DNA from: Stramonita haemastoma | Lineage: Eukaryota; Mollusca; Gastropoda; Neogastropoda; Muricidae | Direction of reading: 5' to 3' | NCBI GenBank assembly: GCA_030674155.1 | Contig: CM060326.1 | Location: 43,639,687 to 43,703,686 of the forward strand | DNA length: 64,000 nt | The notes under the pieces: generated by a model | Database searches by the model: none | Told to the model about the DNA's origin: nothing | The model's input: the letters and a program-made list of their open reading frames with translations, nothing else | Shown: positions 1,199 through 55,600 of the stretch, one piece after another | Layout of the letters: every line of letters begins with the position of its first letter | Numbering within the stretch: the stretch's first letter is position 1 | Translations under genes and position numbers: made by a program

Positions 1199-4100
1199 GT
1201 CAGTTCTCATCTGGACAACTCAAACCACCTGTATGTTTTTTGTCTGTGCATGCGAGTGACCATGTGTGTAGACTTGAGACTATTATCTCGTATCTAAGAA
1301 ATTCCAAGTGATACACGTAAAATCATTCCAGACTCAACATACAATGAAAATGTAGGTGCACAGGTTTACGTGTGTGTGTGGTGTGTTGTGCATGTGTGTG
1401 TATGCGCACGCGTTTGTGCGCACGTGCGTGTGTCTGTTAGGACAGAGACTGTCTCTGCTTGTGGTGGTGTGTGCCTGGACAGACTGTCCTACATGTGTGT
1501 ATGCCTGGGCAAAGATTCATGTGATTGATGTTTGCTTTGCTGGTGGTTCCAGGAGGGTTGACATACCCTGCAGGGCTCAGCCCCAACCACAGCCCCGGCA
1601 TTTCCCCGTCTGGTTCCCCCCACATGTTCCGCCGTAACCCCAATGGACCCCCCATCCCTGCCCCCCACCGTCGTGGCAATCTTCCCCAGAAACCAAGTGG
1701 TGCCGTGTGTCAGGAGAATGTGGTGGGGGGCACCACCTACTTCTACAACCCTGATGACTTCACGCCGCAGACAGAGGGTGTGGTAAGTGTGTGTGTGTCT
1801 TGCAGGAGCGGGTGATTGTGTGTTTATGGATATATATGCATGCAGTGTTGATTCTAGGGTGCGTCCTTGCAGGATTTACCATATTTTTTTCAACATTGCC
1901 ACAAAATAATGTAAGCAGTGCACCCAAACAGGTGGGAAAAAATTTTTGAACAAATATGCTTTAACTGACCCCCACTTTTTTGTCACAGACCCACCTCCCA
2001 CTATATATATATTCCTTTTTTTGATTTTCGAAGGTTGGTTGCTATAAGTGTGTTATAAGCTATAACAGTTAACAAAAAACATGTGCCTGTGTTTCAGTCT
2101 GTGATAAAGGAATGATAACACGAAATGTATGCCTATGTTTCCATCTGTAACAAAGTGATACCTTAAATGTGTACCTGTATTTTCAGTCTGTGATTAAAAC
2201 AAATTAATGTATGCCTGTTTTAGTCTGTGATTAAGGAAAAATAACAAAAAATGTATGCCTGTGTTTCAGTCGTGATAAAGAAAGAATAACAAAAAAATGT
2301 ATGCCTATGTTTCAGTCTGTGGTAAAGAAATTTAATTTTTTTAAAATTTAATGTATGCCTGTGTTTCCATCTGTAACAAAGTGATGCCTAAAATGTGTAC
2401 CTGTGTTTCAGTCTGTGATTAAAAAAAATTAATGTATGCCTGTTTTAGTTTGTGTGAATAAAAGAAAGTATGCCTGTTTTCAGTCTGTGATAAAGAAAGA
2501 ATAACAAAAAAATGTATACCTATGTTTCAGTCTGTGTAAAGAAATAATAACAAAAAAATGTGTGCCTGTGTTGCAGTCTCTGCCCCCCTTCACCATGTTC
2601 CACTCTACCCCAGGTTACCTGAAGCACATGAAACTGAAAGGACCCTCCACCTTTTTCATGGCAGATGAAATCAAAAGTGTTAGTAGTTTCTTCTGCCTCC
2701 CTCCCTCCCTCCCTCCCTCCTCCTCCCTTCTTTGTCTCTGCTCAGCAGTTCTCTTCATTGTGTGTGCATACATGTGCACTTGTTTAAAAAATTTATGTTT
2801 GGTGTGTGTGTGTGTGTGTGTGTGTGTGTTGTGTGTTGATGTGGTTTATGGTTTGGAGTGTGTTGATGTGATTGAACATGTGTCATGATTTGTTGTCAGG
2901 TGTGGTTGAATTTGTGTATTGTTTTTAGGTGTGGTTGAATTCATGTGTTTTATTTTCAGGGTAGTTGATTTTGTGTGTTTTGTTTTCAGGTGTGGTTGAA
3001 TGTGTGTGTGGCTTTGTCAGGTGTGGTTGATTGGTGTTGATTTGGATGGCAAGTGACAAGTTGTGTTGATGTGTGGATGACACATGTGGTGATGTGGTTG
3101 ACAGGTATGGTGTTGTGGTTGACAGGTAAGCAGGTGTGGTTGACAGTTGTGATGATGTGCTTGACAGGAGTGTGGGTGTGTTACAGGCAATCTTACATCG
3201 GCAGTCCCTGAGTTACACAGCCTGTGATCCGGCTCTCAACCAGGTGAGGGGGAATGGCTGTAGTATACACATTTGTGCTGATGTCTTTCTTTTTTTTTTC
3301 CATTTGTAACTTTGGAGGGGGGGCCAGCAGGGGGCTTAAGACTTGAAAAAAAAAACTGAGCTGGTGTGACACCCACACCAGTCAGAATTTTTTATTTTAT
3401 TCCCCCAACTTCATGCAGATTAAGACCGTTCGACTTTAATCCCATGGGTCCATGAAGTCGCAGGTTCAAAACTTGACAGCGTCTGATGAAGTAAGTGTGG
3501 GGATTTTTACAATCTCCCAACTCAACTTCAAGTGCAGACCTGCCAGTGCCTTAACTCCCTTCATGTATATACACATGCAGAAGATAAAGATTCCAAAATT
3601 CATGTCGGCATTCAGTGGGTTACAGAACCATGGAAATATACCCCGCATACTTCACTGAAGTCAGAATGCAGCTGCCTTCATGGTGGGCAAAAACAGTCAC
3701 ATACACTAAACTTCGCCATTGGTGAACCTTGGAGCTTTAGCTGAGGAGTGGAAAAAAAACAGATAAGAGAAAATAACATTTTATTTTACCATGGGTTTTG
3801 TAAAGGTACATTTCAGCAGTGTGAACAGGTGTGTTTATGTCAGCCCTGTGTTTAGTAAAGACGTCTACATGTCAGCTGTGTGTCAACAGGTGTGTGTGTT
3901 ATAAAAGTGTGTACATGTCAACCATATATGTTTTATAAAAAAAGTATGCATGTCAGCTGTTTGTCAACAGGTGTGTGTGTTAAAAAAGTGTGTAAATGTC
4001 AGCCCTGTTTTTACAAAGATGTCTACATGTCAGCTGTGCGTCAACAGGTGTGTGTGTTATTAAAGTGTGACCATGTCAGCTGTGCATCAACAGGTGTGTG

Positions 4101-52600: not shown

Positions 52601-55600
52601 GGTCACTGTTTGTTATTTCCATATAGGTTAGTATTGTTTATTGCTTGTTATCATATATAGGTCAGTGTTGTGTATTGTTTATTACCATATAGGTCATTAT
52701 TGTTTATTTGTTATTACCATACTTATAGGTATATACCGGTAGCCTCTATTTGACCTTGCAGGAAATCTGATTAGAGTAAAATTGTACATTTTTCACAGAG
52801 AATTCATCTTACATATATGAACAAGAATACTGTGGATACTTTTGAAATTCTTTTCTTTCATTTTGAGGATAAAGGATGAGCACTCTTGTACTTTTACATA
52901 TCCAGTCCCCTTGTGCATGCAGTTGTGTAAATTTTGTTATCTGTTCCCTATAATGAAAATAGGAATATACTTATTATTATTATTATTATTGATCTTTCTT
53001 CTATTGAATTGTGTTGTTTGCTTATGCTTGTAAATACAACAACACAGAACTGTCTAACAAAGTAGCAAGTGTGAGGAAAAAATCCCACCACTCGTTGCAA
53101 AATTTCAGCGACCTCACACTGTTACAGAGATCGTGACTTCAAATCTTGGACAGGAATGTGTCACTTGCCTATTTGGCGATAAGAATTTCCTGCACCTAAA
53201 AATATCACTTATGTTCAGTTGGGGTCAACCTTCAAAACTCAGCAGCAGTCATCACTCACTTCTACTGCAACTGACCAGCTGCCTTGGCAAACTTGAAAAA
53301 GTGATCAGAAGCGATTGTGTGCCATATGTTTTGGAAGCAAACAAGTCAAGTGCAGTGTTGATGGTTGGCACCAAAGATATTCAAAGATAATAACATCTTA
53401 ATGGAGCTGGGAAGGTTTGCTAGCGGATGTTCATATTGGGGGATGGGGAATAGAATAATGGATAGAGGGGTAGGGTATTGCATTTTCACTAGTTTGTCCC
53501 CATTAATCATTGTAGATGGAACTACGCCCCCACCTTAATTTTATGCCAGTATCAATGAATCTGGAAATAACCCAGAGTTTGCTGTATGTGTGTGTGTGTG
53601 ACAGTGGACCTGCAGCCAGTCACTTACCAGGAGCCTCAGTACTGGTGCTCCATTGTGTACTATGAATTGAACAACCGTGTAGGTGAGGCCTTCCACGCTT
53701 CGCACAATTCTATTGTGACCGACGGGTTTTGCGACCCGTCCAACAATGCAGACAGGTTCTGCTTGGGGCTCCTGTCCAATGTCAACCGCAACTCCACCAT
53801 TGAGAACACACGACGCCACATCGGAAAAGGTCAGTCAGTCAGTCATCGCTGCTGGTGTTTCATTGAAAACACTGACTTTTTGGATATTAAAAGAAGTTAG
53901 TAATCAGTTGTTAACTCCACCATCAAAATCACTGATACCACTTTGAGAAGAAATCAGTAATCAGCTGTTAACTCCACCATCAAAGTGACTGACACCTCAT
54001 TGAAAAAATTCAGTGCTCAGTCACAGACTTGGTAGTTTTTTCACTGCTCGGCAGAATGCACTGTCAGCAGTTAGATTTCCACTGGGTTGGGTTTTTTTTT
54101 TCCTGTTCCACCATCAGAATGATAAGTTGTTTGTTTTTTTAACAGAATAATAAGTCAAACAGCAGTCAAAGCGATCAAAGAAATGCATCATCTTCAAATG
54201 TTGAGAAGTTGACCTATATTCTGACAATACTTTCAGAACATGACACAGAATATTCTGAATGCAAACGAGATTAACCTTTGCCTGGCTGGCTTCCTGAGTT
54301 CCCCAGTACCCAGAGGCACAGTAAAAGCTTTATATCTCTACAATCATTAATGGTATTGTAATGAAATTTTAAGTATCTCTGAAACAACTTATTTGCCCAA
54401 CGTCAGCAGTTTTTTGTATATCACTCACTCACTCAGTCCCATGTCCCAAAGGACGTAGGGGGGACATGAGAGAAGACGCAACGGAGATCTTTTTCCATGC
54501 TTCACGATCCTGTGTGGCTAGTAGGAGGCGTTGCAGGGGTTGGGCAGTCCAGTCTTTGATGTTGTCAACCCATGATTTCTTTTGGCGGCCTCTTCTTCTT
54601 TTGCCCTCGACTGTTCCTTGCAAGATGGTTTTTGCTAGGGTGTTGTGTCTTGTGGTGTGACCAAACCACATCAGCTTTCTCCTCTTTATGGTGGAGAGCA
54701 GAGGCTCTTGGGGGCCCACACGCTTTTTGATTTCCTCTTTCACATAGTTATTGGTCTTGTGTTCTTTGTATGATATTTTGAGGAGTCTTCTGTGGCACTT
54801 GTTCTCGAATGCTTGGATTCTTCTCTCTAACTCTGCTGTCAGAGTCCATGATTCACAGCCATATAGGAGGATAGATATTACGAGGGATTTGTAGAGGTGG
54901 TATTTGGTGCAGAAGCTGATGTTGTTGCTTCTGATGATCCTCTGGAGTCTGACTAGAGCAGATGTTGCTGTTGCAATGCGAGCTTTCACCTCATTGTTTG
55001 ATGTGCCATCTTTTGTTAGGATGGAGCCTAAGTATTTGAATTGGCTCACCTCTTCCAATATTTCTCCATTCATCTTTATTTCCGTGCTGTCATTACTCGC
55101 GCTGTTGACCATGATCTTCGATTTCTCTGTACTGACCTCCATGCCGTATGCGCTCGCTCGGTCTGTTAGACTGTCTGTGAGGATTTGCAGTTCTTGTTTG
55201 CTGCTGCCCATGAGGTCAATGTCATCTGCAAATCTGAGGTTGCAAAGGGGTCTTCCACCAATGGAGATGGAAGTGTGGTGGTTTTGCAGTGTCTCTGTCA
55301 TGATGTTTTCGAGGAAGAGGTTGAAGAGTACAGGTGAGAGAAGGCAGCCCTGGCGGACTCCAACCGTGGTCTTGAAGAACTCGCCCACGTGGTTGTTCAT
55401 GAAAACTGCACTTCTTGCATTCTCGTACAGAGCCTTGATGACTTCAATTAGGCAGTTGTCAATGTTGAAGTGCCTGAGTACTTGCCAGAGGCCGTCATGC
55501 CATACCCTGTCAAAGGCCTTTTTGAAGTCTATAAAATTGTGGTACAAGTCTTTTTGGTGTTGGAGATGCTTCTCTATCAGAATTCTCAGGTTGAAAATTT

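Follow-up and report, generated by a model that had tools for sequence, protein, structure and literature searches.

Tandem arrays that copy splice junctions in a snail genome and their relation to background tandem duplication in introns

In the genome of the snail Stramonita haemastoma, introns can carry tandem arrays whose unit reproduces the splice junction of the adjoining exon, together with some of that exon's bases. These arrays were analysed in a window of 64 kb, C11:43639687-43703686 of the 2.17-Gb animal genome, which holds exons of PAN3, of a SMAD gene and of a methyltransferase-domain gene that we take to be GSTCD, and in thirty further stretches of the same genome. The tandem copying of splice junctions is a real, striking and countable feature, wider than the original prediction for this DNA had stated. 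We propose that the arrays are probably minisatellites of the 'mirage' type, arising from a background of local tandem duplication across the whole genome, which tolerates splice junctions.

The evidence comes from a test in which each junction and its flank were compared with the adjoining 2.5 kb of intron, a copy being required to span the junction and to include 4 or more bases to either side of it. The chance level was given by comparing junctions with the introns of other loci, and this swap control returned 6/1008 at a score of at least 20, 3/1008 at a score of at least 22 and 0/1008 at 25. In the first set, window included, 18 of the 168 junctions (10.7%) were copied within their own intron at a score of at least 22, compared with the 3/1008 of the swapped introns. 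Both boundary types were affected (11/88 acceptors and 7/80 donors at score 22), as had been claimed for the window, where 7 acceptors and 2 donors among the named sites pass at a score of at least 20. A second set gave 8/100 junctions at score 22, namely 4/49 acceptors and 4/51 donors, including two weak members that were counted all the same, an acceptor in L004 (score 23, TG-rich) and a donor in L022 (overhang 7). Pooling of both sets gives 26 of 268 splice junctions copied in the adjoining intron. Outside the window, 17/209 junctions in the thirty stretches pass at a score of at least 22, or 14/184 when only one member of each duplicated gene is retained. The copies contain exon bases to a median, per junction, of 6-63 nt. 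Tandem Repeats Finder (TRF) alone put 10/91 acceptors and 4/81 donors inside an array and missed many cases; a longer query at a score of at least 16 was discarded because its swap rate was too high (61/910 and 46/810).

The sets were assembled as follows. Window junctions were set by reading frame and by eye. The joined exons have Pfam matches to Pan3_PK (2.5e-59) for PAN3, to MH1 (2.1e-42) and MH2 (1.6e-20) for SMAD, and to a methyltransferase domain (1.4e-13) for GSTCD, in line with the identities first proposed; the name GSTCD itself goes beyond the domain match and is presumably correct, resting on the earlier label and on recall. The thirty stretches outside the window (L-numbered, 9.9 kb each) lie around kinase, chaperonin and adaptin exons, and gene names there beyond the Pfam family are our reading of the translations. 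There were 74 exon matches listed, of which 1 outside the retrieved stretches was dropped, and ambiguous exon edges were removed by eye; the first set outside the window comprised 61 acceptors and 52 donors, with edges defined by hidden Markov model continuity or by the best nearby site. The flank requirement was such that 88/91 acceptors and 80/81 donors were used in the 32-mer founder test and in the junction test described above. The second exon set came from a coding-score prediction over these stretches and consisted of 61 new exons, with 12 in the antisense control. Inspection by eye removed 11 acceptors and 10 donors that seemed doubtful or of low complexity, were themselves mirage copies or lay close to an end, and 1 further acceptor was lost for lack of flank, giving 49 acceptors and 51 donors.

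Introners are repeated splice-site-bearing sequences in which one sequence is common to many genes. The probability that an introner-like or other mobile element, with splice sites in its unit, underlies the snail arrays is negligible: the units do hold splice sites and sit in introns, but no unit is common to the sampled genes (3/1008 in the swap control) and each holds the bases of its own host exon. One element at many unrelated introns was not found by the swap control among the sampled junctions, and the original view that the unit is site-specific, and not one mobile element, is upheld.

The frequency of junction copies must be read against the intron background. TRF arrays with a period of at least 10 cover 14% of 361 kb. 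By the junction test at a score of at least 22, 27% of random points (17% with a low-complexity filter) show a copy on one chosen side, which exceeds the 10.7% of junctions; these random points are all stretch positions away from known junctions and include some unannotated exon and intergenic sequence. A raw comparison of this type with a 32-mer query (score of at least 18; 90 acceptors and 80 donors) gave 11/90 and 6/80 for junctions versus 194/578 and 192/587 for random points. It was rejected as unfair because arrays inflate intron length, and a founder-collapsed null was therefore used, in which points in the last unit of an array (recognised by a copy on only one of their two sides) are set against copy-free points. 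With this null, all sites together gave 18/168 junctions (10.7%) versus 10.2% (p=0.80), and 17/157 versus 7.3% with the complexity filter (p=0.09). Outside the window and without duplicates, 14/184 junctions (7.6%, 95% confidence interval 4.2-12.4) compare with 9.3% (p=0.53), and 13/173 with 6.0% after filtering (p=0.42). By this measure junctions are hit at about the rate of any intron point, and on our reading they are not special seeds. The idea of a process aimed at junctions is not supported by this comparison (7.6% against 6.0-9.3% for any intron point outside the window), nor by the overhangs, whose medians of 6-63 nt reveal no anchoring on AG|GT.

Several observations weigh against this reading. 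The earlier, shorter 32-mer query gave a 1.4- to 2.2-fold junction excess over the founder null: at a score of at least 18 with the filter, 10/82 acceptors versus 4.3% and 5/72 donors versus 4.7%; unfiltered, 11/88 acceptors and 6/80 donors versus 7.5%; and outside the window, 4/57 acceptors versus 4.0% and 5/46 donors versus 4.1%. Within the window, filtered and at score 20, 8/28 acceptors and 3/27 donors are copied (joint p=0.04), a high rate on which the choice of the window for its junction arrays has a bearing. The founder null assumes that array ends have not been shifted by selection or homogenisation, and correct splicing in the face of equally strong decoys is likewise assumed. Finally, acceptor copies reach a median of 17.5 nt into the exon, whereas at random points the corresponding distance is 56 nt (p=6e-6, n=10), and acceptor arrays with at most 35 nt of exon are in excess after filtering, both outside the window (4/56 versus 0.92 expected, p=0.013) and in the second set (4/46 versus 0.75 expected, p=0.007).

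The excess of the 32-mer query and these short overhangs would suit a process directed to junctions or acceptors, such as slippage of a pyrimidine- or TG-rich tract before the AG, or transcription-coupled breaks. The short-overhang acceptor arrays amount to 10/84 versus 1.5 expected when the window, the source of the idea, is included and the filter applied, and acceptor arrays have a median of 4 copies versus 1 at random points (p=0.002). We nevertheless regard such directed seeding as improbable, given that the overall junction rate equals that of the founder null. In the first set, few acceptor arrays include more than 35 nt of exon (1/84 versus 4.2 expected, p=0.13), so that the total may be unchanged and displaced towards short overhangs, either through selection or through drift of the units beside a constant exon. 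Moreover, the short-overhang excess is non-significant without the filter (outside the window 4/58 versus 2.15, p=0.17; second set 4/49 versus 1.8, p=0.11), the classes, cut at 35 nt, were chosen post hoc, and the outside-window and second sets each include one duplicated-gene pair. Donors display no short-overhang excess in the first set (2/73 versus 1.65) and little in the second (3/50 versus 1.9%, p=0.07); their overhang median is 42 nt versus 56 nt past a random point (p=0.23, n=7). The short overhangs can be explained either by removal of long acceptor copies by selection, by old arrays drifting away from a fixed exon, or by acceptors being preferred seeds. The last proposition in its specific form, that array birth is aimed at 3' splice sites and that segments with overhangs of up to 35 nt are duplicated several-fold more than comparable intron segments, is rather unlikely. 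If it were true, introns would grow largely by budding decoy acceptors, and the genome would constitute a mass natural experiment on splice-site choice. A junction-directed process is unneeded to explain the frequency, although an acceptor bias is worth testing.

Many of the copied splice sites, here called decoys, keep an intact dinucleotide. Counted over six arrays, AG or GT is preserved in 114 of 125 units, versus 109 expected from mean column identity; a seventh array, that at PAN3 11594, has it in 5/13. The dinucleotide is thus about as well conserved as the remainder of the unit, so the decoys are neither purged nor specially kept. At the 18 copied junctions, 127 junction copies were counted (alignment threshold 13, such that a few may be chance); 114 of these copies retain the dinucleotide, a single GSTCD array supplying 40 of them, and 53 of the 114 equal or exceed the real site in score under a generic weight matrix. 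The fact that decoys are mostly intact, and often match real sites in strength, would also be expected if the arrays were functional, regulating splicing or yielding alternative products under selection, and one unit of an array in CCT2 (L024) has a stretch that resembles an exon, flanked by AG and GT. This explanation is very unlikely in our view: the 114/125 versus 109 denotes no special conservation of AG or GT, copy number varies between related gene copies, and the CCT3 duplicate is present in one gene copy and absent from the other. The exon-like stretch of the CCT2 donor-array unit lies at ~4130-4210 of L024 (sense coordinates), between CCCCAG and GTGAGT, and is a candidate cassette exon.

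For the background duplication that we favour, the following course can be hypothesised. A segment of ~30-170 bp would be duplicated in tandem with random ends and, where one end fell within an exon, the duplication would straddle the junction. The sequence displays the apparent product of this step, an exon left intact, its true junction being retained in the copy on the exon side, with extra intronic copies bearing the splice site and some exon bases. Arrays would then expand or contract by slippage or unequal exchange, in keeping with the copy-number differences seen. Splicing would pick the exon-side site because only that copy belongs to a whole exon, rendering the decoys harmless and leaving them to neutral drift, and selection would do little to remove junction arrays. 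The part of the original prediction concerning tandem duplication across the junction, with introns lengthened by decoy sites, is supported.

Outside the window, the first set contains a CCT2 donor array (L024) with six copies that include 39-66 exon bases, arrays at a PASK donor and acceptor (L009, L010), a PAK-like donor (L001) and a MAPK7-like donor (L008), and acceptor arrays at AP2A (L029) and CCT3 (L022). The second set added, among others, a CCT2 acceptor array and two arrays in an LRRK-like gene (L018): a donor array of 53-bp unit with five near-perfect extra donors, and an acceptor array with a unit of ~25 bp and 17 copies. Two chaperonin genes are present as pairs of copies, which may be alleles or duplicates. 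The identical test finds six copies at the CCT2 donor in L024 versus one in L030. The CCT3 copies L022 and L023 have long matching blocks of 81-98% identity, and an acceptor duplicate 88 bp upstream with 18 exon bases is present in L022, as opposed to a single copy in L023; this pair looks like an occupied and an empty site. Similar copies of chaperonin exons, inverted on the same chromosome, were observed at C13:9.849-9.961 Mb, C29:33.41-33.51 Mb and C4:7.80-7.83 Mb, and may represent palindromic duplication or a misplaced haplotype.

In the window, about a dozen splice-site arrays had been claimed, and nine of the twelve reach a score of at least 20 (Table 1). The remaining three stay below 18 in the junction test against the adjoining 2.5 kb of intron: the PAN3 acceptor at 11594 (15 with the 32-mer, AG in only 5/13 units), the SMAD exon-3 donor at 52001 and the acceptor of GSTCD exon 4, which we place at 36893 by mapping the original exon numbers to coordinates in exon order. 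Two additional sites pass and look low-complexity, PAN3 12458 (score 22) and the SMAD donor 53829 (score 21). The former is probably chance (two matches 382 bp apart); it is counted in the 18 and was omitted from the overhang comparison.

Table 1. Genes and splice-junction arrays in the window (coordinates of the 64-kb window)
Feature	Position	Strand	Description	Copies and exon bases
PAN3	1060..15512	+	14 exons (those from 1060 on) supplying junctions	
PAN3 acceptor, exon start 2577	2070..2579	+	TRF ~46-bp array ending in acceptor; score 22	9 junction copies; 6 exon bases repeated
PAN3 acceptor, exon 5166	4568..5175	+	TRF 31-32-bp array; score 28	19 copies; up to ~10 exon bases (ATTTCC...); AG intact in 18/19 units
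PAN3 acceptor, exon 9934	9777..9942	+	TRF 41-bp array; score 31	4 copies; 16-19 exon bases; AG kept in 2/4
PAN3 acceptor, exon 11594	11243..11589	+	TRF 26/52-bp array abutting acceptor; junction copy not confirmed	
PAN3 acceptor, exon 13836	12821..13836	+	TRF 32-bp array; score 20	28 units, AG intact in 24/28; 8 junction copies, mostly ~3 exon bases
PAN3 donor, exon end 13974	13975..14897	+	TRF array downstream; score 24	10 copies of CCTCAACAAG|GTACA-like junction
GSTCD (presumed)	24640..40478	-	13 acceptors and 12 donors supplying junctions	
GSTCD acceptor, exon 25928-26134	26121..27622	-	TRF 28-bp array; score 33	53 units, AG intact in 51/53; ~17 exon bases (two copies up to 50)
GSTCD donor, exon 33774-33913 (site 33773)	33700..33797	-	TRF ~31-bp array; score 22	5 copies; 18-43 exon bases
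GSTCD acceptor, exon 34488-34821	34809..35048	-	TRF 43-44/70-bp array; score 37	3 copies; 19-22 exon bases
SMAD	49253..53829	+	Exons supplying junctions; first start approximate	
SMAD acceptor, exon 51807	51020..51807	+	~70-88-bp array, start approximate; score 36	9 copies; the six longest hold 17-40 exon bases

Other features of the window were also observed. Frame breaks occur in conserved PAN3 exons at ~4137, ~8530 and ~11640, consistent with indel errors of the assembly. Three copies of a short SINE-like (short interspersed nuclear element) repeat, headed by a transfer RNA (tRNA), lie at 37644-37705 (+), 38226-38298 (-) and 39479-39499 (+), and two of the three score as tRNA in Rfam. An open frame of 645 aa at 54429-56366 (-) resembles the reverse transcriptase of a long interspersed nuclear element (FADDIDLMG) and is apparently located within a SMAD intron. 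Further MH2-like sequence follows downstream of the SMAD exons at ~56820-57217 (by eye), and a 20-bp repeat, GTCACCACACATTCWTCAGG, at ~58014-58240 lies past what looks like the stop codon of SMAD and may belong to the 3' untranslated region (by eye).

The PAN3 frame breaks, and the occurrence of some genes as similar inverted copies, would be compatible with an artefact in which repeats were collapsed or expanded in a noisy long-read assembly. We consider this highly improbable as a source of the arrays, whose units are mutually diverged (mean column identity 0.91-0.97 in seven arrays), which affect unrelated genes with differing sequences, and which have matching counterparts in separate gene copies (L009/L010 and L024/L030).

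Among known systems, the human gene IFI6 (6-16) has a minisatellite at an exon-intron border that supplies multiple splice donors, several of which are reported to be used. Repeated donors at such a border are common to both, but IFI6 is a single gene, whereas the snail arrays involve several genes and their copies are potential splice sites. Tandem duplication that makes extra splice sites also relates the snail arrays to models in which introns are gained when AG/GT proto-splice sites are duplicated (Rogers 1989, cited through PMC3087553) and to the cases described in Drosophila (PMC2891723). In those accounts the duplicated segment is coding and gives rise to an intron at a new position (PMC2891723, PMC3087553), whereas the snail arrays sit in the intron next to the exon and extend over 6-63 exon nt. 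Their overhangs are scattered, with those medians, and the duplications do not break at AG|GT. The arrays put numbers on a route for intron lengthening and, possibly, for the birth of introns or exons. If the rate holds genome-wide and splicing is correct, they would offer a large natural test set for the choice between a true site and near-identical decoys, in which exon definition, transcription order and distance are candidate discriminators.

It had been supposed that arrays of this kind were undescribed; a limited literature search found no report of splice-junction arrays in molluscs, and the words 'repeat' and 'minisatellite' are absent from a paper on gastropod hemocyanin introns. Such arrays have already been reported in amphioxus as 'mirages', in the Adh (Adh3), globin (BflGb6/BflGb9), TnC and PGBD5 genes (PMC3087553, PMC3902484). 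Their splicing is seemingly undisturbed, their length unstable and their mechanism unclear, and a role in intron gain has been proposed (PMC3087553). As in amphioxus, the snail unit spans the exon-intron boundary and includes exon bases (18/168 and 8/100 junctions), acceptors and donors are both affected, the unit is gene-specific, and AG or GT is intact in many units. The amphioxus mirages were described gene by gene, in cephalochordates, with splicing and somatic instability examined; the snail arrays come from a different phylum and from several genes in a small sample, with a measured frequency and a comparison with the intron background. This suggests that a feature known as an oddity of amphioxus turns up again in an unrelated phylum with rife local tandem duplication. 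On the best reading, the snail arrays belong to the mirage kind, and what is new is the non-chordate host, together with the measured frequency and the null model.

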